A stretch of DNA of 37,955 nucleotides. Source: a virus. The stretch spans positions 1-37,955 of the IMG/VR virus record IMGVR_UViG_3300032288_002421. The stretch is one strand, 5' to 3'. How positions within the stretch are numbered: position 1 is the first letter of the stretch; each line of letters begins with the position of its first letter. A program made the position numbers and the translations under genes. Of the stretch, positions 1 through 37,955 are shown one piece after another. Below the pieces are notes generated by a model. It was not told where the DNA came from and did not search any database. It saw only the letters and a list, made by a program, of their open reading frames with translations.

Positions 1-198
1 CAGGTCGCCCACGCCGGCCAGCGCATTCTTGAGTTGCGTGTTCTCCGCTTCGGCCTGCAATGCCTGCCGGTACTGGAGGTCGGCCAGGCGGTTGGAGTTC
101 TGCGCATTCTGGATTTGTGCGACCTGTCCGTAACGTGCCAGCGGGTTGTCGAATTGCGGGGCGCGGTAGGCCAGTGCAATGCTAGGATCAATCGCCAT
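1..198 (-). CDS. Ejection protein, N-terminal fragment (second allele of the gene at 36459-37832)
   Basis: Only the first 66 residues are present; the gene runs off the left edge. It starts with MAIDPS and closely matches the N-terminus of the 457-residue protein encoded at 36459-37832, with three conservative changes (I3L, D17E, Y23F relative to that copy). The ATG overlaps the TAA of the upstream gene in TAATG. It is therefore the same locus seen again from another variant, which shows that the window ends overlap. Function by analogy is an internal virion protein ejected with the DNA. The family assignment is an inference from position and composition. Confidence 0.85.
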   Translation of the reverse strand, partial: MAIDPSIALAYRAPQFDNPLARYGQVAQIQNAQNSNRLADLQYRQALQAEAENTQLKNALAGVGDL

Positions 199-325
199 TA
201 GTAGTACCTCCGCTCATTCAGCTTGTCGATGATTTGCTGGTTCGCGTAGTTGTTGTATCCCTGCCCGATGGCCCCGGACAGCGCGTTGGCCCCGCCGATG
301 TAGCCCGAGGCCCGTGCGTTCGCCC
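1..325. repeat. Left copy of diverged terminal direct repeat
   Basis: Bases 1-197 match 37635-37831 with 8 mismatches by eye. A short poorly aligned stretch with a 4-base length difference follows at the gene junction. Bases 237-325 then match 37867-37955 with one mismatch. Mismatches in the coding part are synonymous or conservative, so this looks like two real alleles rather than sequencing error. Confidence 0.93.
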
Positions 326-1781
326 CGCCCATCAGCGCGTTGTTGCTCGCGTTCACGCTGTTGTTGATGTTCGCGCTTGCGTTGCCTGCGTAGTTCTGCC
401 CCGCCGCGCCGATGTTCCCCGCCGCCGTCTGCCCGGTGCCGGAGATCGCCGCCAGCCGGTTGAAGATGTTCGTGCGGTCAGCGTTGTAGCGGTTGTAGGC
501 GTTGCCGAACTCGCCCGTGGCGTAATCCTGGTTGTAGCGGGTCAAGGCTTTCAGGGTCGCGCCGGAGTCGTACATGCCACGCGCCCCCGCCGCCCGGTTA
601 AGGCCCTTCTCGCCCTCGGCGAGCCGGAACTGGTAGCCAGGGTCGGCGTTGAAGTCCTCGAGCCCGAAAGGCTTGTTCAGGCTGCCCATTTGCCCGGTGA
701 GCGAGGACAGGGCGTTGGCACCCGCCGCCCGCCACGGTTCCATGTCGGCGCGGTTCTGCTGGTACATGGAGGCCAGCAACGCGTTGCCCTCCCTGGAGGC
801 CGTCAGCGAGGCTTGGGCGGCATCCCGTGCGGCTCCGGCTTGCGTGTCGGCGGCGTTGCCCGAGGCGTACATGCCCAGCAGGCCACCGATCGACGGGCCG
901 AGGATGCTGCCCAGCAGGGACGGGCCGCTGCCGTTGCCGCCGCCGCCCAAAAGGTTGCCCAGCAGCGAGGTGCCGACGCCCGTGCCGATGCCCTTGAGCA
1001 CATCGCCCGCACCGTAGTTCCAGCCGTTGTAGGAGCCGGTCAGGGGCTGAATGCCGCCAGCATCCGCCGCCGAGGTCATGCCCCAAGGAATCGAATCTGC
1101 GTATTCATCGCCCATGCTGCCTCCAGTACCGCCCGTGAGTTGCGCGGCGCCACCGCCGCCGCTGAATAGATTCCCCATGCCGCCGGTCAGCGCGTTCACG
1201 CCGCCGGACAACAGCGAGCTCCCAACCGCGCCGCCTACGTTCCCGCCGAACAGCGCAGAGTTGGCCCCGCCGAGGATTGCTTTGCTCGCCAGCGAACCCG
1301 TCATCCCGCCGCCAAGGGAACTAGCCAGCCACGGGCCAATCGTGCCGCCAGCAACAATCGAGGCGGCAAGCGGCAGGAACCCGTAGTCCGTCTGCCCGTT
1401 CAGCGCCTGATTTTTCTGCTGGGTCATGGCGATGGACTTCTGCTCTGCTGCCTCCCGCGCCGGGTCGGAGCCGAAGCCCATCACCCGGTTCATCGCGGAA
1501 TCGCCCCAGTTCATCGGGTCGGCCTGTTGCGCCCCCGTGCGCTGCATGTAGTCCTGCAGGCGGTTACCGATGTCTGCATCCGACAGGCCAAGCCCACGCA
1601 GCCGGTCGTGCTGCACCGAGTTCATGCCGAGTTCCTGCCAAAGCGGACGCGGGCCGTCAGGCTCCAGCATCTGCGCATCGCCTAGCTGGATGTCCTGGCC
1701 GTCATCGGTGCGGAACCAGTCGCCCACGTTCAAGCGCGAGCCTGAGACCGTGGTTCCATCAGGAAGCCGGTAAATCGCCAT
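198..1781 (-). CDS. Podophage internal/DNA ejection protein, glycine- and asparagine-rich
   Basis: 527 residues starting MAIYRLPDG. The open frame extends further upstream, but that part overlaps the previous gene; the ATG at 1781 overlaps the upstream TGA as ATGA. The N-terminal third is polar. The middle is rich in Gly/Ala/Ser/Leu with hydrophobic stretches (GGLLGMY type), and the C-terminal half is rich in Asn/Ala/Gly/Tyr around YNRYNADRTN. This layout is usual for the 'DNA transfer protein p32' type of podophage internal protein, which leaves the capsid with the DNA and helps it cross the envelope (P22 gp7/gp16/gp20 role). It is followed by two further ejection-type genes across the window join. 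Assignment rests on composition and position. Confidence 0.7.
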   Translation of the reverse strand: MAIYRLPDGTTVSGSRLNVGDWFRTDDGQDIQLGDAQMLEPDGPRPLWQELGMNSVQHDRLRGLGLSDADIGNRLQDYMQRTGAQQADPMNWGDSAMNRVMGFGSDPAREAAEQKSIAMTQQKNQALNGQTDYGFLPLAASIVAGGTIGPWLASSLGGGMTGSLASKAILGGANSALFGGNVGGAVGSSLLSGGVNALTGGMGNLFSGGGGAAQLTGGTGGSMGDEYADSIPWGMTSAADAGGIQPLTGSYNGWNYGAGDVLKGIGTGVGTSLLGNLLGGGGNGSGPSLLGSILGPSIGGLLGMYASGNAADTQAGAARDAAQASLTASREGNALLASMYQQNRADMEPWRAAGANALSSLTGQMGSLNKPFGLEDFNADPGYQFRLAEGEKGLNRAAGARGMYDSGATLKALTRYNQDYATGEFGNAYNRYNADRTNIFNRLAAISGTGQTAAGNIGAAGQNYAGNASANINNSVNASNNALMGGANARASGYIGGANALSGAIGQGYNNYANQQIIDKLNERRYY

Positions 1782-6201: not shown

Positions 6202-7404
6202 TTAACCCCACAGCCTGCAGGCCATCGGAGCCCGGATCACCGAGTACCCGTACAGCACATCGATACGACACGGCATGCGGTCGTTGTTGATGTCGTACTG
6301 GCGCACGATGCGCAGGCTGATCCCGTTGTGGACCTGACGGCTGGCCATGTCCACGCCCCGCGGCATCAGCAGGTCCGCCGTGGCGAACGTGATGGCATCG
6401 CGGTGGTAGATCAGGTTCTGCGGGTAGGAAGTCGCAGCCGATCCCAGCATTGTCACCGTCTTGCCGGACTGCGGGAACGAATCCACCGTCGCCAAGGCCG
6501 AGGCCGAGGTGTAGATGGGCGGCGACACCGTGAGCGTGGCGGTCGAGGACCCCGTCACCGCCGCGGTCACCACGAACTGCTGCAGGCTGCCGGTGGACAG
6601 GCGCGTTTGCGGGTTCACCGCGTAGCAGTCGGCGATCGTGAACACGTCACCCACCGCCCAGGTCTTGGACGAGCCGGTGAACGAGATGCCCACCGAGGTA
6701 GTGCCCTGCGTGGACAGCGTGGAGGTCACCGTGATGGTGGTGCCCCAGTCGCCCGTGGTGTGGTTCACGATCGACTGCGACATGTTGACCTCGTCGTAGC
6801 CCAGCACGCCCTCGCCCATCATGCCGCTCTTGAACTGGCGGGAGATGGTGCCGGTGGGGTTGAAGAAGCCCTTCATCCCCTCGACCAGTTGCGCGTTCGC
6901 CGCCGGGTTGACGGTGGCGTAGCGCGGGTTCTGGCCGGCGGCCATCTCGTTCAGCTTCTGCTGGCCCTGCAGCAGCACCAGCGACGTGGACGGCGTGGTG
7001 CCGGGGGTGCCTACCGACGCGTAGATGCTCTTGTACGCGTTGGCGACATCGGCATCCACCGAGGCCGCGAGCTGCGACACGCGGGGCTTGAGCACGCGCT
7101 CGGCGAAATCGTCCAGGCTCATCGTCATCTCGGCGGTGGTGAAGTTCACGCCGATGTGCTTCTGGCTGGCGACCGTCAGGCTGGTGTACTGCTCGTTGTC
7201 ATCCTGCACCTGAAGGGCGGCACCGTCGGTCACCAGTGCGCGGTCCGGCAGGCGGATGCGCAGCGTGGAGCCGATCTTCGCGCCCTCGACGGCGTACGAA
7301 TCGTCATACTGGCGGTTGACGTTGCGGGTGATCACCAGGTTGTTCTCGAGGATCTCGAGCGCCTTGGCGGTGATCATGTCGATGGTAAGCAGTGAGTTGC
7401 TCAC
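6202..7404 (-). CDS. Major capsid (coat) protein, P22 gp5-like
   Basis: 400 residues (P22 coat is 430). GTG start with AAGGAG 9 nt upstream. The N-terminus with DMITAKALEILENNLVI, then VNRQYDDSYA..G..IGSTLRIRLP, is characteristic of the P22 coat family, an HK97-fold shell protein. A Thr/Ser/Val-rich stretch around residues 225-310 (VTSTLSTQGTTSVGI, VGDVFTIADCYAVN) corresponds to the inserted I-domain. The C-terminal block GISLRIVRQYDINNDRMPCRIDVL is another family hallmark. Its neighbours are the scaffold upstream and small decoration-type genes downstream. Confidence 0.92.
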   Translation of the reverse strand: MSNSLLTIDMITAKALEILENNLVITRNVNRQYDDSYAVEGAKIGSTLRIRLPDRALVTDGAALQVQDDNEQYTSLTVASQKHIGVNFTTAEMTMSLDDFAERVLKPRVSQLAASVDADVANAYKSIYASVGTPGTTPSTSLVLLQGQQKLNEMAAGQNPRYATVNPAANAQLVEGMKGFFNPTGTISRQFKSGMMGEGVLGYDEVNMSQSIVNHTTGDWGTTITVTSTLSTQGTTSVGISFTGSSKTWAVGDVFTIADCYAVNPQTRLSTGSLQQFVVTAAVTGSSTATLTVSPPIYTSASALATVDSFPQSGKTVTMLGSAATSYPQNLIYHRDAITFATADLLMPRGVDMASRQVHNGISLRIVRQYDINNDRMPCRIDVLYGYSVIRAPMACRLWG

Positions 7405-8706: not shown

Positions 8707-10887
8707 TCAGGCTCCTAGTTGGGGAGGCATCGGTTGCGGGGGCTGCGGCATCTGCTGCATCTGCGGCGCGCCCATGGGCATCGGGGGCGGCATCATTCCG
8801 CCGCCGGATATGTCGGGCGAGGACAGCAGCGAGCGCACCTGCTGGTCCACCAGCGCCTGCACGGCCTCCGGCGACATCAACGGCGCTTCCACCTTGATGC
8901 GCTCGGTCTCGGCCTTGTAGGCGTCGATCTCGATCTTCATGCGCTCATACATGGACTTCGTGTCGTTCACCTTCGACATGATTTCCTGCATGGCCTGCTC
9001 GGCGGCCTGGTTCTGCGCCTGCAGCGCCTCGATCACATGCGTGGCCTGCGCCAGTTGCGTCTCGGTGTCCGGGCCTTCGTGGTCGTTCTGCAGCAGCTTC
9101 GGCGGGATGGTCTTTTTCAGGCGATCGGCCATTTCCTCAGAACCCGGCCAGTCCATGTTCTTCACCAGCAGGTCGCCGATCACGCCCCACAGTTGCGGGT
9201 TGGCTTGCGTGAGGCTGGCCATCGCCTCGACCGCCTCTTGGCGCTTGGTGGCGTACCCGGGGCCGACCGACACCGCCACGTCGTAGATGCCGACGGACGG
9301 GTTGTAGATTTTCTTGATCAGTTTGCCTTGCTCGTCCCGAATCTCGCGCACCGCTTCGGGCTGCTTCGGGTCGATGATGGCGGTGGACGCCTCGCCGTCC
9401 AGCCCGATAATCCGGGCCACGCGCTGGGTGTCGTAATACTTCGGGATCAGGTCAACGAGCTGGCGCGTGCTGTACCGGATGGCGCGGGCCAGGTTGTCCT
9501 GGTAGTGGAACGTGCCGGTGTCGGACTGCTTCTCACGCGCAAGGATGGCCCGTCCGCTGGTCTCGTTGGACTGCGCCCCGAGGCTGGGGTCGTACTGGCC
9601 GGTGGTGCCCTTGATGTCATCCGCGGCGCCCATCTTGGCGGCGATCAGGCCACCCTGCTGCAGCGGCGGGGCCATGCGCTGGGGAGCAGGAACAAGCGCC
9701 CCCTCCTCGGTCACCGGGTTGTATTGCAGGTAGGGATGGTTCTGGACGTTGGCGGTCTTCCAGTCCTGCTCAAACCCTTCGAACTGGCCGGCAGCGCCCA
9801 CAAACGGGGCTTTGGGCGCAAGGGCGAGCATTTCCGCTTCTTGGCTCACCCAATAGTTGTACATCCGCTGGGCGTCCTTGGCGTTGCGCACCAGACCGCT
9901 GATGTAAATCTGGCCGTCGATTTCAAACTCGTTGCCCACCACCCGTATCACGGGGATGTACTTGCCGGGCCAGTCGCCGCGCTGCAGGATTTCCGCGCCG
10001 GTCATCTTGCACCACTTCACCGACGGGATCGTGGTCTCGCGGGTGTCTTGGATCACGTCGGCCATCGCAATCCGCGCACGGCACTCGGGCGAGTCCTTGA
10101 ACGTCACCGCCCCGGACACGTGCAGGCACAGCGTTTTCTTGACCGTCTCGTAGTAGAAGTATTCCGCCACGCGCACGGTGTCGGAGGAGTACCAGTTCTG
10201 CCAGTTGTCGCCCGCGCCGCGCTCCACGCTGTCCACTGGGATGGCGTCCGGCCAGCGTTCCTTGAACTCGTCCTTGGGCACGTCCTCGCAGATCAGCACC
10301 CATTGCGCGTCCGCTCCGCACGGATCCTGCATCGCCGGGTCCATGTAGACGGCAAACGAGTTGCGGATGCGCCCGATCTTGAGGTCCTGCTCAAACGACA
10401 TCGGGTTGGTGTACTCGGCCAGAATCCGCCAGTAGCCCTCGCCGAACGTGACCTGGTTGTCGCAGGCGGTGTCGTAGGCGATGTCGGCGTCGGAGATGTA
10501 CTCGATGTGCCGGACGATGCCGTCCAGAATCTCGGCCACCTCGGGGTCGGCGTTGTCATCCACCGGGATGACCTTGCCGCTGGGCCGGTTCTTGCGCTGC
10601 TCGTTCGTGACCTGCAGCACGTGCTGCGGCAGCTTGTTGATGGTCAGGCACGGGCGGGCGTTGATGGACTGGCCCGAGACGCTGCCACGGGTGGCGATCA
10701 CATCCGCCGGCCACTGCCACTGGTTGTCCGGCGAGCCGGCGCGGAACCGCAGGTCGTCCAGCTCGTCGTTGCGGCTTTGCGACAACGCCGAAATGGCGAC
10801 CTGCATCCGCTTGCGGGCGGTTGCCAGCAGGTCGGCGTCATCCTTGGGCGCCGGTTGCGGCTTGACGGTGTCGTAGGTCTCAGCCAT
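8707..10887 (-). CDS. Portal protein, P22 gp1-like
   Basis: 726 residues from the ATG at 10887 (an in-frame ATG 9 nt upstream gives 729); P22 gp1 has 725. Recognisable features are the early helix LLATARKRMQVAISALSQSR, the NQWQWP segment, the LTINKLPQHVLQVTNEQRKN block, ..YDTACDNQVTFGEGYWRI.., and a long C-terminal helical barrel region ending in Met/Pro/Gln repeats. The dodecameric portal forms the DNA channel at one capsid vertex and binds terminase, then gp4. It follows terminase and precedes scaffold as in P22. The first codons overlap a 42-residue TTG-start gene by 8 nt. Confidence 0.93.
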   Translation of the reverse strand: MAETYDTVKPQPAPKDDADLLATARKRMQVAISALSQSRNDELDDLRFRAGSPDNQWQWPADVIATRGSVSGQSINARPCLTINKLPQHVLQVTNEQRKNRPSGKVIPVDDNADPEVAEILDGIVRHIEYISDADIAYDTACDNQVTFGEGYWRILAEYTNPMSFEQDLKIGRIRNSFAVYMDPAMQDPCGADAQWVLICEDVPKDEFKERWPDAIPVDSVERGAGDNWQNWYSSDTVRVAEYFYYETVKKTLCLHVSGAVTFKDSPECRARIAMADVIQDTRETTIPSVKWCKMTGAEILQRGDWPGKYIPVIRVVGNEFEIDGQIYISGLVRNAKDAQRMYNYWVSQEAEMLALAPKAPFVGAAGQFEGFEQDWKTANVQNHPYLQYNPVTEEGALVPAPQRMAPPLQQGGLIAAKMGAADDIKGTTGQYDPSLGAQSNETSGRAILAREKQSDTGTFHYQDNLARAIRYSTRQLVDLIPKYYDTQRVARIIGLDGEASTAIIDPKQPEAVREIRDEQGKLIKKIYNPSVGIYDVAVSVGPGYATKRQEAVEAMASLTQANPQLWGVIGDLLVKNMDWPGSEEMADRLKKTIPPKLLQNDHEGPDTETQLAQATHVIEALQAQNQAAEQAMQEIMSKVNDTKSMYERMKIEIDAYKAETERIKVEAPLMSPEAVQALVDQQVRSLLSSPDISGGGMMPPPMPMGAPQMQQMPQPPQPMPPQLGA

Positions 10888-11008
10888 GCCAGGCATCCAG
10901 TGCGCGGCGCACCGCGGCGGTCATGGGGTTCAGGCGCAGCGCGTCAAAGAATCCGACGGCCTGCAAGTGGGCGATGGCCTTGGCCAGCGTGGTGGGGGCT
11001 TTACGCAA
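10880..11008 (-). CDS. Small 42-residue protein between terminase and portal (TTG start)
   Basis: A TTG at 11008 overlaps the last codons of the upstream 69-residue gene. The frame runs 42 codons to a TGA that overlaps the portal start by 8 nt. The product begins LRKAPTTLAKAIAHLQAVGF and looks like one amphipathic helix pair with Lys/Arg and Ala/Leu. Without it the operon would have a 113-nt gap, unusual here, and both junctions overlap like those of its neighbours. Start codon and coding status are inferred; no homologue is recalled. Confidence 0.5.
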   Translation of the reverse strand: MRKAPTTLAKAIAHLQAVGFFDALRLNPMTAAVRRALDAWHG

Positions 11009-11210
11009 TGTCGCCGTCCCTCAGTTCTGCGATGGCAGCGGCCATCTGCGCATCGCGCACGTCGGCCCGGAACGCGTACAGGGCCCCGTCCAGTTCCACC
11101 GGCTTGACCATGCCGGCCGGAATGGACACCACCTCGCCGTCACCCATCAGCCAGGTCATCAGGTTGGAGGCGGGCGAGCCCACCAGCGGAACCATGCCGG
11201 CGGGGGTCAT
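11001..11210 (-). CDS. Small protein after terminase, unknown function
   Basis: 69 residues starting MTPAGMVPLVGSPASNLM. The ATG overlaps the terminase stop (ATGA), which fixes the start. The middle resembles a small beta barrel (VVSIPAGMVKPVELDGALYAF); the end is helical and acidic (DAQMAAAIAELRDGD). Probably translationally coupled to terminase. A packaging or head-assembly accessory role is a guess from position. Confidence 0.65.
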   Translation of the reverse strand: MTPAGMVPLVGSPASNLMTWLMGDGEVVSIPAGMVKPVELDGALYAFRADVRDAQMAAAIAELRDGDIA

Positions 11211-12550
11211 GCGCCCATCCATCCGGTTACGCCGCCGAGGTGACGCACCGGCACCCGATCCACCTTGGCGCGTACCTCCTTGACCATGCCGGGGAACAGT
11301 TCGGACATTGCCCACACGAACGCGTCGGCCCGGTTCGGGCTGCGCTGGCCGGTGTAGCCGGTGGTGGAAAACGCCTCCAACTCCTCCTCCAGTTGGGAGA
11401 AATGGCCGACCATGCGCACCTTGCCGGTTTCGCACAGGCTGGCGATCGGCTCGGCACGCACCACCTTGCCGCGGCTGGCCGTGACCAGCTTAACCGGGGT
11501 GCGCGGGCGGGCGGTCTGCAGCACCATGCGCACCATCTCGCCGCCGAAGTTCTTCTCGGCCACGATCAGGTCAGCGTTGTGGCGCTCGTAGGCGTTCGCC
11601 GCCACCCGGCCCCAGGTCGTGGGGCCACCCTTGCAGGTCAGGTCCTCCAGCATGTAGGCGTTGCCGTCGCTGCCCAGCGCCGCCACCACAATGCCGATCT
11701 CGTCATTGCCGGCGTTGTCCTCGTCGCCGGAGCCGGACGGGTCCACGGCCACCACCACGCGCTGGAAGTCCGGCAGGTCGATGTTCAGCGAGCGCCAGCG
11801 GTCCAGCGTCTCCATGGACCACAGGGCGTTTTCCGTCGCGCTGGCGAACTCGCCGTCAAGGAAGCGCCGGCGCATCGCAGCCGACATGCCCTCCAGCGAT
11901 CGCAGGTACTCGCTGGGCAGGTTTGCCTCGTTGTCGCGGGGGTTCATCTGCATGGACGCAAACTGGTCAGCAGGCAGGCCCTGGCGCGTGTCCGGGTCGC
12001 GGTGCTGCTTGAATAGCTGGTACGTCCAGTGCGCCTGCGAAGGCGGGTTGCAGTCGTACAGGGCCTTCAGGCGCAGCGGCACGTCCTTGCCGTCGCGCTT
12101 GTACGTCACCGCCTGCGCCAGGCGCGTCATGGCGAGGTTCCGCGAGGCGAACGGGATTTGGCTGCACTCGTTGAAAAACAGGGTGCTGTATTCCTGACCA
12201 AGGATTTTCTCGGTGCGCTCTTTGTCATCCAGCCCGCCGAACCAGATCTCGCTGCCGTTGGGCAGGCGGGCGTACCAGTCGGTTTTGTCGATGCCGTAGG
12301 TCACGCCCGGAAAGCAGCTATCCATGACCTTCGGGAACGTGTCCAGCACCACCGACGCCTTGACGTGGTTGAACCGGAAGCGCATCACGGCATGGCGGGA
12401 CTTGGCGGCTGCCAGCGCCCGCAGGACCACAGTGCGCACGTTGACGAACGTCTTGCCCGAGCGCGAGCCCCCGAAAAGCATGCAATGCATGGCCGGCCCG
12501 CCGATCAGTGCGGTGGCCTGCTGCTGGCGCGGGGTCAGCTCAAAGGACAC
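11207..12550 (-). CDS. Terminase large subunit (packaging ATPase and nuclease)
   Basis: 447 residues, GTG start inside the end of the small-subunit gene. Walker A is GGSRSGKT at residues 27-34. The Walker B region is LFFNECSQ at 124-131, with Asn in place of the usual Asp before the catalytic Glu. The RNase H-like nuclease domain has D270 (VVAVDPSGSG), E332 (LIVAEKNFGG) and D409 (PNRADAFVWA). It powers DNA translocation into the procapsid through the portal and cuts the concatemer. Arrangement and neighbours agree with P22-type headful packaging, though pac or cos type cannot be read directly. Confidence 0.95.
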   Translation of the reverse strand: MSFELTPRQQQATALIGGPAMHCMLFGGSRSGKTFVNVRTVVLRALAAAKSRHAVMRFRFNHVKASVVLDTFPKVMDSCFPGVTYGIDKTDWYARLPNGSEIWFGGLDDKERTEKILGQEYSTLFFNECSQIPFASRNLAMTRLAQAVTYKRDGKDVPLRLKALYDCNPPSQAHWTYQLFKQHRDPDTRQGLPADQFASMQMNPRDNEANLPSEYLRSLEGMSAAMRRRFLDGEFASATENALWSMETLDRWRSLNIDLPDFQRVVVAVDPSGSGDEDNAGNDEIGIVVAALGSDGNAYMLEDLTCKGGPTTWGRVAANAYERHNADLIVAEKNFGGEMVRMVLQTARPRTPVKLVTASRGKVVRAEPIASLCETGKVRMVGHFSQLEEELEAFSTTGYTGQRSPNRADAFVWAMSELFPGMVKEVRAKVDRVPVRHLGGVTGWMGA

Positions 12551-26630: not shown

Positions 26631-26964
26631 CCTGCTGGACATCGCAGCCGCCGCCGCCAGCCTGGACGTGAGCGAGCGCACCATCCGGCGCGAAATCGCA
26701 GCCGGTCGCCTTGCCGTGGTCAAAATCCGGGGAAGGATTAAACTGCACTCCGCCGAACTCGCCCGCTACATCGCCGACAACACCACATGCCGATCCGCAA
26801 ACGTGGCACCCGCTACCAAGTCCGCGTGCAGTCTGCCGGTGGTCGGATTGCGCGAACTTTTGGGTCTAGGCGAGACGCGCAGGAGTTTGAAGCCCGTTAC
26901 CGTCAGCGGGTCGCAGATCATCGGGTTGGACGAGCGCCGGCAGTCGGCATCGAGGAAGCCCTAA
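26623..26964 (+). CDS. Excisionase-like HTH protein with long overlap into integrase
   Basis: 113 residues from GTG overlapping the preceding stop. The first 55 residues are a MerR/Xis-type winged helix: LLDIAAAAASLDVSERTIRREIAAGRLAVVKIRGRIKLHSAELARYI. The remaining 58 residues are read from the other frame of the integrase start and have no recognisable domain. Located directly before int, it probably steers excision. The 178-nt overlap is far longer than the usual 4-20 nt here. Confidence 0.75.
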   Translation: MADLLDIAAAAASLDVSERTIRREIAAGRLAVVKIRGRIKLHSAELARYIADNTTCRSANVAPATKSACSLPVVGLRELLGLGETRRSLKPVTVSGSQIIGLDERRQSASRKP

Positions 26965-27779
26965 CCCGCTGGCTGACCGGCGAGGCCACCGGCCTGCGAT
27001 CGCACCGCAACCTGCTGGACAAGGCCCGCACCATCTACCCCTACATCGTCGGGCGCCCGCTGTCCGAGGTCGCCGACGTGGCCGAGGAAATCGCCGCGGC
27101 TGGCCTGCGCCAAGGGCTCGCCCCCGCCACCGTCAACCGACGCTTGGCCATCCTGCGGCGCGTGGCAAACCTGGCTTACAAACGCTGGGGGCTGCTTGAG
27201 CAGCCGCTAGGTCAGAGAATTACCATGGTCCCGGGCGAGCGGGCGCGGACCACGCACCTGACGCCTGCCGAGGTCTACAAGGTCGCCCAAGCCGCGCCGA
27301 CGCCTGCCGGCAGGGATTGCATCCTGCTTGCCGCCATGTCTGGCCTGCGCCTGTCCGAGCTGCTCCACCCGGATCTGCGCCGGGACGGGAACGCCCTGGT
27401 GGTGCCGCCCGGGAAGAATGGCAAGTCGCGGCTGGTCCCGCTGCCGCCCGAAGCCGCCCGCCTGCCGGTGCCGGTGACCCTGACGGAACGGGAGCTGCGC
27501 CGGGAATGGGACGCTGCAAGGCCACGGGCGGGCCTACAGGGCGTTCGGTGGCACGACCTACGCCATACCTACGCCACGCTGCTGATCGGCTCTGGCGCTG
27601 ATCTGGCGGCTGTGCGCGACCTTCTAGGCCACTCCCACATCGGAGTGACGTCGAAATACCTGCATGCCGCCCTTCCCAGCCTGACCCGGGCGGTGGCCGG
27701 TTTCCCTAGCCTGGCGCCGGCGGCGCGGGACAAGAGCGGGACAGCGGGACAGCGCAAACTCCGCAAGAAAGCGGCCTAA
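26787..27779 (+). CDS. int: Tyrosine-recombinase integrase
   Basis: 330 residues. N-terminal arm-binding-type segment MPIRKRGTRYQVRV, core-binding domain about 52-145, catalytic domain 155-310 with R188 (SGLRLSELL), K213, H256 and R259 (HDLRHTYAT), H282 (LGHSH) and nucleophile Y291 (TSKYLHA). The C-terminal end is basic (RKLRKKAA). Integrates phage DNA at a tRNA gene; attP lies 20 bp downstream. The start lies inside the excisionase-like gene. Confidence 0.95.
   Translation: MPIRKRGTRYQVRVQSAGGRIARTFGSRRDAQEFEARYRQRVADHRVGRAPAVGIEEALTRWLTGEATGLRSHRNLLDKARTIYPYIVGRPLSEVADVAEEIAAAGLRQGLAPATVNRRLAILRRVANLAYKRWGLLEQPLGQRITMVPGERARTTHLTPAEVYKVAQAAPTPAGRDCILLAAMSGLRLSELLHPDLRRDGNALVVPPGKNGKSRLVPLPPEAARLPVPVTLTERELRREWDAARPRAGLQGVRWHDLRHTYATLLIGSGADLAAVRDLLGHSHIGVTSKYLHAALPSLTRAVAGFPSLAPAARDKSGTAGQRKLRKKAA
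27725..27752 (+). repeat. Arm-type repeats, left of attP (three copies)
   Basis: GCGGGACAG-type 9-mers at 27725-27733 (one or two mismatches), 27736-27744 and 27744-27752, inside the last codons of int. Three more copies lie on the other side of the tRNA-like core. This is the layout of integrase arm-binding sites. Confidence 0.7.
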
Positions 27780-27798: not shown

Positions 27799-27851
27799 AG
27801 TACCCGGGGCGGGGATCGAACCCGCATGCCTTGCGGCGAGGGATTTTAAGT
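27799..27851 (-). other. attP core: 3' half of tRNA-Leu (UAA anticodon loop to acceptor)
   Basis: On the minus strand the sequence reads CTTAAAATCCC (anticodon loop and 3' stem), a variable arm, then GCGGGTTCGATCCCCGC (T stem-loop) and CCCGGGTAC (acceptor strand). The 5' half of the tRNA, including any D loop, is absent, so it is not a functional tRNA. This is the usual core for phages that integrate into the 3' end of a tRNA gene and restore it. Exact core limits cannot be set without the host sequence. Confidence 0.85.
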
Positions 27852-27914
27852 GCCCGGGGCCACGTTTGGCAGGGCGGTCTTCATAGGGCAGCGCCGGTCA
27901 GAAGCACCCGGAAT

Positions 27915-28333: not shown

Positions 28334-30958
28334 TCATCGCTTTTCTTCGGCCATAGCGTTGACGTTATAGCCAAGCGCGGCAAGTGCCCCGGCTACAGTC
28401 ATGCCTTTGCGGATCATATCGACCGCCTTGGGCCAGTCGGCCTCGCTGAAGAATCGCCGAGTCTCTTGAATATCGCCACGGGCGCCGCCCATCAAACTGT
28501 CGCGCAAAGCCTTGGCGCGAATCGCCGCACGCACCGCTTCGGACTCGCCTAGATTTTGGGACACGGTCGGTGGCAAATCGGCAAACGCTCGCAACATTCC
28601 GCTGGTCGCCTCGCCACTATACGGAGCGGTGGGCATCAATCCGTCCGGTCCGCGCTTCATAACGCCAGGCACATAGCCCGTACTGGAAATTGCCATTTCA
28701 CGCGTTGCGCCTGGTAGTGCGTTATCAATCCGATTACCAGCGGTTCTCATTATTTCGTTGAGTGCATTGGGACTTGCGCTTGGGTTGTACGGAAACACCA
28801 ACGCGCCCCGATTGGTAGCGGTAACGGCGAACCCGCTAGCCGCATCATCCAAGCCCGCAAGCTTGAGGGCCACAGACTGGGTGGGCGGGCCATACGGCAT
28901 TGTTTCGCGCAACCGTGCCGCGTCCAAGTTAGCTTTGCTGCTAGCTTCACCCAGGATGTTGTTGATCTGACTGAGTTGCTCTGCGGTTGGCAAAACACCA
29001 GCACTTGGATCGTTCAACCTTCCGGGGTTTATGTTTCGAGTATCAAGCACCACAGAGTTCTTTCCCTTGACGCTTGCCATGGTGTTGGGCAGGTTGTAAG
29101 CGCCAGCCTCTTGCGCGTCCATTAGGGCGCGGAACTGCTCTGCTGTGCTCATCACCCGGCTCGACATGTCTGAGATGCGTCCGCCGCCGCCACCCGTTGG
29201 GAAGTCCATCAATGGGCGTGCAATCGTCATCGGGTTGGTCTCGACGCCGCCCATGCTGTTGATGTAAAAGCCACTCGCCTCACGGGACGGCAGTTGCCTG
29301 TACCCCAGCGCACCGTAGATGGCATCACGGTTTCCGGCGCCGACCTGCGGGTAACTGTTCAGAAATGAATCCGGTGCAGGCAGGTCCCAGCGGCCCGTCC
29401 GGCTATATAAAAGCTTTTCCTCTGGCGTCATGTTCAACGCTTGCCGAACGTGGTTCAGCGATGCGCCTGGAATCGCCTCATGCGTGGCCGAGGCAGCGTG
29501 CTTGTACATGTAATCGCGTGCGGTGTTGTTCGCATCCCGTATGGCGGCCTTGATGCCCTCCAGCTCGTCGCCACTAAAACGCCCGGCCTTGCCCCTGCTG
29601 TACAAGTCCTGGGCCTTGCCGTAGACCCAAGGCACCTCCTGAATGTGCGGGCCGGCCCAATCGGTGCGGCCACCAATCGCAGCCTTATTGGCGCGATCGA
29701 CTTGCAGCGCCGTCTCGGCATCCATGAACGGGTGCATCGTGTCGGACACACCCGCCTTCCATGGATTGCCTTGCGGATCGGTATAGTGCATGCCTTGGGC
29801 GCGGCGAAAATCGTTCACGCCAAACAGGCCTTCGTTGGGGATGCGCGGGTCGTTCTTGTTGGCGTACTCCCCGATTTTGAAACCCATGTTTGCCGGTCGA
29901 TCGTTGGCAACGGCTGTATCAAGGGTTCGCATCGGTGCGCTACGGTAAGCCATCTCCGGCGCACCAGCCACACGACTGTTTAAGTGCTTGAGCGCAAAAC
30001 CCAGTTCAGACTCGGGGCTGACTCCCGCCGAATACACACCGTGCTGCTCGAGGGTGCGGTTAAGTTGATACGGTTCGCTGCTCTCAGAAATTCCCTGCTT
30101 TGCTCTGTCATACCATGTGCCAAGCCGGTCAGGATCTGCCAACCGAACGGCCTCAACCGAATCAGCAAAGTCTTTATCCATGCTTCGGCGCATGGCGCCA
30201 AGCCCTTGGCCGCCGGTTACCGTGCGGGGCGCTCCGACGTAGCCGCTATTCGTAGGCTTGAGATGCTCGCCGGCTCGAGCAGCCCTCAACACAGCCTCGT
30301 CGCCCTGGCTGATAGCCATCTCGCGGTAAAAGTCTGGCGCTACCTTGCTGCGTGGCCCGTTTGACTTGACCGTCTTGGCAGATTCTTCCGCGACATTGTC
30401 TGCACTTTCCCGCGCCATCTTCTCGACTTTTTTGGCACGCGAGGCTTCCTGCACATGCTTCTGTCCGAACTTCTCTATAACAGCCTGCTCTTCTGCCGTG
30501 CGGGCCACCTTGGCCTGTGGAATCAAATCGGCCAACTTGGCACGGCGTCCCGCGGCGTTAGCGCCCAGCGCCTTGGCAGGAACGGAGCCGGACGTGGCAA
30601 CGCCGCCACCCATCATGTTCAATGCAAAGTTTGCCGCTTCTTCTGGACCGTTGAACGCGCTGCGCCAGGCGCCACTTTCGTCAACATCCAATCCACCGCC
30701 CAACGAACGAGCCGGGGCAGTAAATGCATTGACGGCGCCCGCCAGAATGGACGGCAATGCCCAGCTTCGCTCGTTCATCACAGAGCCTGGCATTGTGTCC
30801 TGATAGGGCAGCAGCATCGCACGCCCTTCCATCGAAAGCGGATCTTGAAGCCTGTCCATCACCCCGGACAGCTTGTTCCGCTTCGGCTCGTTCGCCAGTA
30901 CCGCATTGACCACGCGCCGCAGCGCGTTCTTGTCGTTGGGCAGGTCAGCCACGCTCAT
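28334..30958 (-). CDS. Large virion-type protein of unknown function, end of late operon
   Basis: 874 residues with GGGAG before the ATG. Mostly polar, rich in Ala/Asn/Arg/Gly, with long helical parts (FGQKHVQEASRAKKVEKMA) and a C-terminal hydrophobic helix (MTVAGALAALGYNVNAMA). Contains repeated MPT/GP/NP patches and no catalytic motif that I can identify. It follows lysozyme, where podophages may carry a late ejected protein. The base composition is less GC-rich than the head genes, suggesting a separate history. Could be an ejected polyvalent-type protein; undetermined. Confidence 0.65.
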   Translation of the reverse strand: MSVADLPNDKNALRRVVNAVLANEPKRNKLSGVMDRLQDPLSMEGRAMLLPYQDTMPGSVMNERSWALPSILAGAVNAFTAPARSLGGGLDVDESGAWRSAFNGPEEAANFALNMMGGGVATSGSVPAKALGANAAGRRAKLADLIPQAKVARTAEEQAVIEKFGQKHVQEASRAKKVEKMARESADNVAEESAKTVKSNGPRSKVAPDFYREMAISQGDEAVLRAARAGEHLKPTNSGYVGAPRTVTGGQGLGAMRRSMDKDFADSVEAVRLADPDRLGTWYDRAKQGISESSEPYQLNRTLEQHGVYSAGVSPESELGFALKHLNSRVAGAPEMAYRSAPMRTLDTAVANDRPANMGFKIGEYANKNDPRIPNEGLFGVNDFRRAQGMHYTDPQGNPWKAGVSDTMHPFMDAETALQVDRANKAAIGGRTDWAGPHIQEVPWVYGKAQDLYSRGKAGRFSGDELEGIKAAIRDANNTARDYMYKHAASATHEAIPGASLNHVRQALNMTPEEKLLYSRTGRWDLPAPDSFLNSYPQVGAGNRDAIYGALGYRQLPSREASGFYINSMGGVETNPMTIARPLMDFPTGGGGGRISDMSSRVMSTAEQFRALMDAQEAGAYNLPNTMASVKGKNSVVLDTRNINPGRLNDPSAGVLPTAEQLSQINNILGEASSKANLDAARLRETMPYGPPTQSVALKLAGLDDAASGFAVTATNRGALVFPYNPSASPNALNEIMRTAGNRIDNALPGATREMAISSTGYVPGVMKRGPDGLMPTAPYSGEATSGMLRAFADLPPTVSQNLGESEAVRAAIRAKALRDSLMGGARGDIQETRRFFSEADWPKAVDMIRKGMTVAGALAALGYNVNAMAEEKR

Positions 30959-34383: not shown

Positions 34384-36459
34384 TTACTGTCCTTTCTTGG
34401 TCTGCGCCGCCGATTGCGCGGAACCGATGCCCGACGCCTTGGCGGATTGCTTCATCTCAAACACTATGGATTCCACCGTCCGCGGCGTGGCTTTTTCCAG
34501 CATCGTCTTGGCCAACTTTGGGTCCAACATAATCCGCGCCAGCGTGTCCTGCACGTCGTTTTCGTTCAGCCTGGTGATGAAGTTCAGCGAGCGAGCGATA
34601 ACCGGCCACTTCGCCACCGCTTGCGCATCGCCGCCAAGCACCTGGCCCAACACGTAGGCGGTGGACAGGTTCTGCGCGGTGTTGGATCCGACGCTGCGCC
34701 CGCCCGTGTTGGACAGGCTGCCCCGGTCAAGATCGGCGGCGACGTTCTCCAACCGCTTCATCTGCGCGGGCGTCAGGATTTCGGACATTTCGCCAAGCTT
34801 GTTTGTGAACAGGTTCTTGAACTTGGCCTGCGACAGCGCGTATTCCGCTTCCTTAGTGATCGGGTTTTGCAGCACCAGCGCGTTCTCCGCGCCCTTGCGG
34901 ATGCCCGCCACGGTTTCCATCTGCTCGATGGGCTTGGACATGCGCGAGTATTTGGACAGGTACTGCTTCCAGTCTTTCGCGCCGGACTGCGTGATGGCGT
35001 CATCCATCATGGCCTGCACTTGGGAGGCGAGGCCTGCCGTGTACCGCTTGTCGAAGTTCTGGTTTTCCTGCGCGAACTTTTGGATGGTGTTCCCGATCTC
35101 TTTGCGGATCATGTACAGGTCATCGGGGTGGATCGTCCCGTCCGCCGCCGTGAAACTGGCGATCTTCTGGCGGATGTCGGCGATGGCACCCGAGGCCACG
35201 TTGGAAGCGCGGATGCCAGGGGTGGTCTCCATGCGGGCCAGTTGCCGCCCCAACTCGTCGGCGTAGACGCCTTGGGCGCGAACCGCCTGCAGGGACTGCT
35301 CGCGCAGCGGCGCGGTCACGGCGGTGCGCTTGGCCTCCGCACTAACCATCCCCGGCGTCATGCCGGCATTCGGCCCGCTGGCGATCTCCGCGCCCCCGGC
35401 CAGCCGGCGCAGTTCGTTCTGGCGGGCCAGGTTGTTGGCCGCCATGCGCTCGTCCAGCATCGCCTGAAACCGGGGATTGCTGGCCGCGATGCCGCGCTCG
35501 AGGATGGCGAGCTCGGTGGAGCCGGACGCCTGCGCGGTGGTCGGGCGCGAGCCGGGGACGAACTCGGGCACGTTCTCCAGCGACCGGGCCACCGCCCGCG
35601 GGTCGCGCACCATGCCGGCCACGGCGCCGGGAGCGGTATTGCCTGCGCCCATCGTGCCGACGGACGCCCCGGCGATGTCATCTGCCGCGCCCATGCCCAG
35701 CACCTTGGGAGAGCCCAGCGCGTCGGCAAGGATGCGCTGGACCGCCGCCTCGGTGCCCGCGTCACCGCGCAGCCCGGTGGTGTCCAGAATGGCCTTGGTG
35801 AGCCGGCCTGCGGCCTTGGCGGTGCCGACCACAGCGGGGGCCGCGTAGCTGCCGGCAATGCCTGCAGCAATCTGTGCGGCAGGGCCTGCGCCCGACTCCC
35901 TGGCGGTGCCCCCAGCAGCCGAACCGCCGACCGCGGCGAGCGCCTGTGCGCCGGGATTGGCTGCCATCATGCTCGCCGCCTTGCGACCGAGCGCCGTGCC
36001 TGCCGTGTCCGCTAGTTGCCTCGCAGCGCCCACCGTGCCCGCCGTGCTGGCGAGCGCCCGGTTCACGTCATAGACCACCCGCTCCGTCGCGCTGGCGGGC
36101 TTGGGGAACGCCTTGTCCAGTATCTGCTCGACCTGCTCGGACGGAGCCTTGTCGCCGCCCCGGATCCAGTTCACCACGTCTGCAAGGACGGGCGCGAGCG
36201 CCGCGGCACCGCCGCCGGCCAAGGCGCCGGGAATGGCGCCGACGCCGCCTATCAGCGCCCCGCCAGCCGCGCCTGCGGTCATGCCTGCGACGATGGGCGC
36301 AGCAGCGCGTCCAGCCAGCCCCACGGCCCGCATGGCGCGGTCAGGCATGGACAGCTCGGTGGACGCCGCCGGCGCCTTGGCGGGCGTCTGGTAGTCCGTC
36401 CACGGGCCTGCCGCTGACGCAGCCGCCTGCGGTTTGTAATCCTCCCAGGGGCCGGCCAT
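34384..36459 (-). CDS. Podophage internal/ejection protein with GPWxDY motifs
   Basis: 691 residues from the ATG at 36459 in a TAATG overlap (an upstream in-frame start would lie inside the preceding gene). It begins with two GPW-x-DY repeats (GPWEDY, GPWTDY) in the first 25 residues, then long Ala/Gly-rich hydrophobic regions (GAAGGALIGGVGAIPGALAG), and later coiled helices (NLARQNELRRLAGG, IRKEIGNTIQKFAQENQN). Large Ala-rich helical proteins with GPWxxY motifs are common DNA-ejection proteins. By order it would be the third such protein. Confidence 0.75.
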   Translation of the reverse strand: MAGPWEDYKPQAAASAAGPWTDYQTPAKAPAASTELSMPDRAMRAVGLAGRAAAPIVAGMTAGAAGGALIGGVGAIPGALAGGGAAALAPVLADVVNWIRGGDKAPSEQVEQILDKAFPKPASATERVVYDVNRALASTAGTVGAARQLADTAGTALGRKAASMMAANPGAQALAAVGGSAAGGTARESGAGPAAQIAAGIAGSYAAPAVVGTAKAAGRLTKAILDTTGLRGDAGTEAAVQRILADALGSPKVLGMGAADDIAGASVGTMGAGNTAPGAVAGMVRDPRAVARSLENVPEFVPGSRPTTAQASGSTELAILERGIAASNPRFQAMLDERMAANNLARQNELRRLAGGAEIASGPNAGMTPGMVSAEAKRTAVTAPLREQSLQAVRAQGVYADELGRQLARMETTPGIRASNVASGAIADIRQKIASFTAADGTIHPDDLYMIRKEIGNTIQKFAQENQNFDKRYTAGLASQVQAMMDDAITQSGAKDWKQYLSKYSRMSKPIEQMETVAGIRKGAENALVLQNPITKEAEYALSQAKFKNLFTNKLGEMSEILTPAQMKRLENVAADLDRGSLSNTGGRSVGSNTAQNLSTAYVLGQVLGGDAQAVAKWPVIARSLNFITRLNENDVQDTLARIMLDPKLAKTMLEKATPRTVESIVFEMKQSAKASGIGSAQSAAQTKKGQ

Positions 36460-37832
36460 TACCGGGCCTTTTCCCACGATTTGGGATCAGCGGGGTCGCC
36501 ACCTTTGAACAGGTAGCCTTTGACCACGTCGCCGACCTTCGGCTTGGGAGGCGGTGCAGCAGGGGTGGCTGGCGGCGTGTTCACCTTCAGCGTGTCGCGC
36601 TTGGCGCTTGGCACCGCTGCCATCATCCCGTCGATCGCCAACTTACGGTTCTGCGCCTTCTGCTCGATGACCTCCGGCGAGTCGCCGACCTGCGGGAAGT
36701 ATTGCCGGTCTGCCGTGGCAAACTCGCCCTGCGAGATGGCCGCGCCGGACTCCTTGCGCAGCAGCGCCGTGACGAAGTTGCGCTTCGCCTGGGTAAGTTG
36801 CTGCTGCTCGGCAGGCGACAGCGCGTTGATGGTGTCGCCCACCGCGCCATTACCACCCGCGCCAGGCACGCCGACCTGCACGCCCTTGGTCGCCAGCGCG
36901 TCCAGAATGGCGTCCGACTGCTTCATGCGTGCGCCGAACATCAGGGCGTTGGATTGCACCTCGTTCAGCGGCACATCCTTCGGGCCCAGCGGCCTGCCGT
37001 CAAGGCCTATGACCGGCGCCGCCGTGCCACGGCGCGTGTTGACCACCACGCCGCGCTCCGTGTCGAACTGTTGTCCGCCTGCGTTGAAGTGGCGATCTGC
37101 CTGCTGGCGATCCAGCACGCGCTGCGCCACGCTCGCCACGCTGTCCGGGGTCTGCTGCATGGTGATGGACGGCACGCCAGCCATCCGCCCGAGCGGGACG
37201 CCTTGCGCCAGCGGGTTGGTGTTGACCATGAAACGGCTGGCGCCGTCGCCGTCCATCGTTACCTTGGGCGCCAGCATCTCGAGCGCCTTGCGGCCCTCCT
37301 CCGACGCCATCGCCATCTGGCGCACGAAGTTCGGCAGTTGCGCCGCGTCCATCGGGATCTGGCTGCGCAGGTTGCGGTCAGCCAGGCCCATGGCCTCCAG
37401 CCGGTTGACGGTGGAGAACACATCGTCATGCGTCAGGTCGGGCTTGTTGACCAGCGGCGCGGTGGCGGCGCTGAAGGCCGTCAGGCGGTCGTTGGCGGCC
37501 TTCAGGTCCTGCGCCGTGATCTTGCCCCGCGTCTCACGTTCTGCGAGCGCGTTCTTGCCGATCTCCTGCGCATCCTTGACGCGGCCCACCCTCAAGAGCG
37601 CGTTCTGCGCTTTCTGCAGGTTGTCGGGCGTTGACAGGTCGCCCACGCCGGCCAGCGCATTCTTGAGTTGCGTGTTCTCCGCTTCGGCCTGCAATGCCTG
37701 CCGGTACTGGAGGTCGGCCAGGCGGTTGGAGTTCTGCGCATTCTGGATCTGTGCGACCTGTCCGAAGCGTGCCAGCGGGTTCTCGAACTGCGGGGCGCGG
37801 TAGGCCAGTGCAATGCTGGGATCAAGTGCCAT
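36459..37832 (-). CDS. Podophage internal/ejection protein
   Basis: 457 residues starting MALDPSIALAYRAPQFENP. An N-terminal coiled coil (RLADLQYRQALQAEAENTQLKN) leads into helical segments (NALLRVGRVKDAQEIGKN). The C-terminal tail, with Pro-rich linker and SWEKAR, links to the next gene by TAATG. Proteins of this shape occur between the glycine-rich and the GPWxDY ejection proteins in podophage genomes. A second allele of its N-terminus is at 1-198. Confidence 0.75.
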   Translation of the reverse strand: MALDPSIALAYRAPQFENPLARFGQVAQIQNAQNSNRLADLQYRQALQAEAENTQLKNALAGVGDLSTPDNLQKAQNALLRVGRVKDAQEIGKNALAERETRGKITAQDLKAANDRLTAFSAATAPLVNKPDLTHDDVFSTVNRLEAMGLADRNLRSQIPMDAAQLPNFVRQMAMASEEGRKALEMLAPKVTMDGDGASRFMVNTNPLAQGVPLGRMAGVPSITMQQTPDSVASVAQRVLDRQQADRHFNAGGQQFDTERGVVVNTRRGTAAPVIGLDGRPLGPKDVPLNEVQSNALMFGARMKQSDAILDALATKGVQVGVPGAGGNGAVGDTINALSPAEQQQLTQAKRNFVTALLRKESGAAISQGEFATADRQYFPQVGDSPEVIEQKAQNRKLAIDGMMAAVPSAKRDTLKVNTPPATPAAPPPKPKVGDVVKGYLFKGGDPADPKSWEKAR

Positions 37833-37955
37833 GTCAGGCCCTCCGTTGCAGCATGTCCATCAGCTGCTGGTTCGCGTAGTTGTTGTATCCCTGCCCGATG
37901 GCCCCGGACAGAGCGTTGGCCCCGCCGATGTAGCCCGAGGCCCGTGCGTTCGCCC
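37635..37955. repeat. Right copy of diverged terminal direct repeat
   Basis: This is the right-end partner of bases 1-325, shorter by 4 bases because of a length difference at the gene junction around 37833-37866. It shows that the sequence overlaps itself with a slightly different allele. Confidence 0.93.
37834..37955 (-). CDS. Ejection protein, C-terminal fragment (second allele of 198-1781)
   Basis: The last about 40 codons of the same gene as 198-1781, entering from the right edge. The shared part contains the YIGGANALSGAIGQGYNNYA segment, but the end is NQQLMDMLQRRA here and NQQIIDKLNERRYY in the left copy. Stop TGA lies at 37836-37834, one base before the next ATG. It continues beyond the window. 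Confidence 0.85.
   Translation of the reverse strand, partial: ANARASGYIGGANALSGAIGQGYNNYANQQLMDMLQRRA

Follow-up and report, generated by a model that had tools for sequence, protein, structure and literature searches.

The two ends of the window carry one locus in two versions

The stretch of DNA analysed here (the window) is the whole of the virus record IMGVR_UViG_3300032288_002421, 37,955 bases long. It very likely represents one turn plus about 325 bases of the 37.63-kb, circular or permuted genome of a probably temperate P22-like podophage, assembled from mixed strains, and the genome is very probably complete. In a blastn self-comparison, positions 1-325 and 37635-37955 matched over their full length on the same strand, with 93% identity and an E value of ~1e-135, and this end-to-end match was the sole DNA self-match of the window. 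Thus, the same locus is found in direct orientation at both contig ends. The left copy (allele A, 1..325) comprises the first 66 codons of a gp20-like gene, the junction and the last 41 codons of a gp7-like gene, as determined by blastn and translation; the right copy (allele B, 37635..37955), identified in the same way, is 4 bases shorter. The first-pass annotation had described the window ends as two diverged alleles of one locus, and our comparison bears this out, both as to the overlap and as to the differences, which respect codons. It had also put the identity at 96% or better except at the junction. This figure holds for the part outside positions 199-234, which is about 97% identical (9 differences in ~289 bp), but not for the overlap as a whole, for which the value is 93%. 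A stretch common to both copies gave no hit in an exact DNA search of other viral contigs, and neither allele was found on an independent contig, in collections which may lack near relatives.

Differences between the end copies look like true alleles

The two copies differ at 24 positions, and are identical over the first 114 and the last 43 bases. The spacing of differences along the overlap is uneven, with 15 of the 24 gathered in the block 199-234, which covers the C-terminus of the gp7-like protein and the junction, and which also contains the 4-base length change. In allele A this block (199..234, minus strand; alignment and translation) encodes the terminus IIDKLNERRYY and includes a TAATG stop/start overlap as well as the motif CGGAGG in the last codons. 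Translation of allele B gives LMDMLQRRA instead, so the different C-termini and the 4-base length change reported earlier are both confirmed. Eight further differences lie in the gp20-like gene (at 115, 131, 133, 148, 154, 184, 192 and 193), and a single one, at position 282 in the gp7-like gene, is synonymous (GCG/GCT, both Ala). The eight differences in the N-terminal part of the gp20-like gene comprise five synonymous changes and three conservative ones (I3L, D17E and Y23F), and six of them fall in third codon positions; when eight substitutions were placed at random, three or fewer amino-acid changes resulted in 2.6% of trials.

A feature not mentioned in the first-pass annotation is that both alleles keep CGGAGG, which is a good ribosome-binding sequence for the gp20-like gene. 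It is embedded in the final codons of the upstream gene and precedes the start codon by 7-8 bases. In each of the alleles the upstream gene has a proper stop, the downstream gene has a proper start and the frames are open. One could nevertheless propose that the repeat is in truth exact, and that the differences are consensus errors or sequencing and assembly noise at contig ends, where coverage can drop. We consider this highly improbable. The 24 differences leave both frames open, the proportion of silent and conservative changes in the gp20-like N-terminus is rarely reached by chance, and the C-terminal block has changed as a coherent whole. Moreover, the choice between I and L at residue 3 of the gp20-like protein recurs among relatives. 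The codon test on the gp20-like differences led us to reject the consensus-error reading. Since the differences respect codons, they look like true alleles.

The tail of the gp7-like protein is variable among relatives

Variability was computed over 31 distinct relatives. Within the last 110 residues of the gp7-like protein, the last ten have the highest mean entropy (2.05 bits), while the value for the first ten residues of the gp20-like protein is 0.55 bits. The gp7-like tail extends from 11 to 57 residues past the aligned YANQQ position. The tail is thus evolutionarily loose, and it is not surprising that two strains differ there. It is conceivable, though doubtful, that this segment undergoes recurrent exchange or diversification, with alternative tails co-existing in one population, perhaps tuned to different hosts, and with the embedded ribosome-binding sequence kept. 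The junction had also been called a hot spot of variation. This stands with respect to the gp7-like tail, which varies across relatives, but not with respect to the contig ends, as breaks elsewhere occur in unrelated genes; the junction as a special breakpoint was rejected because the contigs of relatives break in other genes.

Joining the ends restores the ejection module and gives a circle of the expected size

The genes on the two sides of the overlap belong to a module for DNA ejection. The gp7-like DNA ejection protein (198..1781, minus strand, 527 aa) matches phrog_598, 'DNA ejection', with an E value of 1.2e-31. The gp20-like ejection protein (36459..37832, minus strand, 457 aa) has a weak match to phrog_35431, and its gene adjoins the gp7-like gene in relatives. 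The third protein of the module is gp16-like (34384..36477, minus strand), as suggested by its position and weak tblastn similarity; PHROG, Pfam and NCBIfam searches with this protein gave no match. The gp20 and gp16 assignments are thus assignments by position and by similarity to relatives, and not by a named family model. With the phrog_598 match and the order in relatives taken together, the three-gene order gp7-gp20-gp16 is present in the window.

The gp7-like and gp20-like genes are located at opposite ends of the window; once the ends are joined, they become neighbours, as they are in relatives. In all 31 distinct junctions measured, including those of DSL-LC05 and MW202557, the gap between these genes is 2-17 nt (the count leaves out locus L004, which is without a measurable upstream frame). 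The closed circle would be 37,630 or 37,634 bp long, which is within the 36.3-38.5 kb of the relatives.

Terminal repeats a few hundred bp long occur in some podophages, and the overlap could be taken for genuine repeats of this kind, although not identical ones, at the ends of a linear virion genome. This is very unlikely to be the case here: the overlap lies within the ejection-gene module, distant from the terminase gene, and repeats derived from one concatemer should be identical.

Relatives also overlap themselves, mostly imperfectly

As a control, we employed six relatives from IMG/VR with genome-length contigs (36.7-39.2 kb), picked on length before their ends were viewed. Five of the six overlap themselves, four of these imperfectly. 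The self-overlap is 127 bases and exact in G001, 211 bases at 99.5% in G002 (one difference, at position 128), 302 bases at 97% in G004 (the first difference again at position 128), and 392 bases at 84% in G006. In G005 (L062, IMGVR_UViG_3300047279_000052) it is ~2 kb long, with 96% and then 84% identity, and there are 114 shared bases at the left end and 127 at the other. G003 showed no self-overlap, and in four contigs of 23-28 kb and in shorter fragments we found none beyond trivial self-matches of records below 6 kb. The sites of overlap in the five relatives all differ (helicase region, primase region, gp4-like gene, portal and DNA polymerase). Since these sites vary between relatives, and none of the five coincides with that of the window, the physical terminal repeat was rejected.

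The circular genome from mixed strains remains the reading that we prefer. A circular phage assembled from mixed strains had been one of two alternatives in the first-pass annotation, and it is well supported by the restored gene order, the right closed size, the codon-respecting differences and the imperfect overlaps of relatives. According to this explanation, the source population would contain at least two co-existing alleles of the gp7-like/gp20-like junction, presumably from two strains in one sample. The assembler would go round the circle, re-enter the locus along the sequence of the other strain and stop. As the two copies are not identical, the ends would have been left unmerged, and they do not form an exact terminal repeat.

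Contig-end runs in relatives indicate how such ends may arise. A length of 127 is typical of assembler k-mers, and exactly 127 starting bases are shared in G001, G002 and G004, as they are at one end of G005; the 127 shared bases in the three relatives are a k-mer length signature. In the window the runs are 114 and 43 bases, neither of them a recognised k, and for this reason we only infer the assembler step in its case. A run of 114 bases before the first difference is common to the left ends of the window and of G005.

The assembly effect itself is an ordinary one and was described before. The COBRA study reports that contigs break at within-population variation, leaving end overlaps of maxK (PMC10914622), and according to CheckV, the lengths of terminal repeats cluster at the k-mer sizes of assemblers, and such repeats originate from circular templates (PMC8116208). 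As in these reports, a de Bruijn assembler working on a circular or permuted genome would halt where paths branch, and the ends overlap. The window differs from them in its shared runs, and in that its overlap does not stop at the variant but extends over 325 bases and is consequently imperfect.

The value of the finding is thus practical more than biological. An exact-repeat test would miss the window as a (very probably) complete genome, and as four of the six genome-length relatives have imperfect self-overlaps, terminal-repeat detection that tolerates mismatches would recover more complete phage genomes. In addition, the overlap provides a free sample of two natural alleles from one population.

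An HNH-endonuclease-like frame (L062:268-867, minus strand) adjoins the portal gene of G005 in the head copy only and is missing from the tail copy, so that a mobile endonuclease gene seems to distinguish the two alleles of this relative.

The phage is P22-like and probably temperate

The window encodes a P22-type major coat protein (6202..7404, minus strand; PF11651) and a P22-type portal protein (8707..10896, minus strand; PF16510, E 8.8e-173). Both are above the cut-off, and by these two proteins the phage classifies as a P22-like podophage. The terminase large subunit (11207..12550, minus strand) matches PF17289 and PF03237 as well as phrog_979; its comparison with solved structures, from which the packaging type could be inferred, gave no match. 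A phage lysozyme is also encoded. An 874-aa protein (28334-30958, minus strand), whose frame is flanked by the lysis genes and the integrase gene, has no match in PHROGs or NCBIfam.

The tyrosine integrase gene (26787..27779, plus strand; PF00589) is directly followed by a probable attP core (27800..27855, minus strand), which corresponds to the anticodon-to-3' half of tRNA-Leu(UAA). It is 91% identical to the tRNA-Leu(taa) of L097, a complete bacterial tRNA gene, while searches of the window for complete tRNAs and for RNA families found none. Because the tyrosine integrase is followed by this half of tRNA-Leu(UAA), the phage is probably temperate, and the core predicts a probable integration site at tRNA-Leu. 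Phage genes lie on both sides of the core, and such an arrangement may be either that of an unintegrated attP or one found within a tandem array.

The latter option corresponds to the earlier suggestion of a tandem array of related prophages, with the window as one of its units; in the present case, two diverged prophages would be integrated at one tRNA-Leu site. Such an array would give an identical internal arrangement, with the integrase and the probable attP flanked by phage genes. We nevertheless regard it as improbable. A tyrosine integrase or serine recombinase is absent from all six genome-length relatives, although five of them show a similar overlap. Since relatives devoid of an integrase overlap themselves too, a tandem array is not needed, and it would be an extra assumption. 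Furthermore, the one relative located in a long isolate contig, from Rhizorhabdus histidinilytica UM2, occurs there as a single prophage: its host genome has one portal match, and the prophage (L093-L096) is delimited by 43-bp tRNA-Ser repeats 45.6 kb apart, with the integrase beside a complete tRNA. The window record itself consists of phage sequence only, one turn with the overlap. We continue to favour a circular genome assembled from mixed strains over the array.

Comparison with the closest known phages

The closest known phages are DSL-LC05 (OR003940), Rhodoferax phage P26218 and the Manatee Spring podovirus (MW202557/MW202655), all of which share the P22-type portal and coat proteins with the window. 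They also have gp10/gp4-like proteins, the order gp7-like, gp20-like, gp16-like, and genomes of 36-38.5 kb. DSL-LC05 is ~73% identical to the window in the coat protein and ~57% in the portal protein, and the values are lower for P26218 and MW202557/MW202655. The window differs from these phages in its tyrosine integrase, as none is annotated in their records.

In the prophage of Rhizorhabdus histidinilytica UM2, the P22-type structural genes are related to those of the window (75% identity for the coat and 60% for the portal), and an integrase beside a tRNA is common to both. However, the distance of 45.6 kb between its att repeats and the use of tRNA-Ser, and not of tRNA-Leu as predicted for the window, set it apart, and no gp20-like relative was detected in this prophage by tblastn.

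The records MW202557.1 and MW202655.1 (L050 and L051) proved to be one circle, rotated and reverse-complemented, which means that a single circular genome is present in GenBank twice, under different names.
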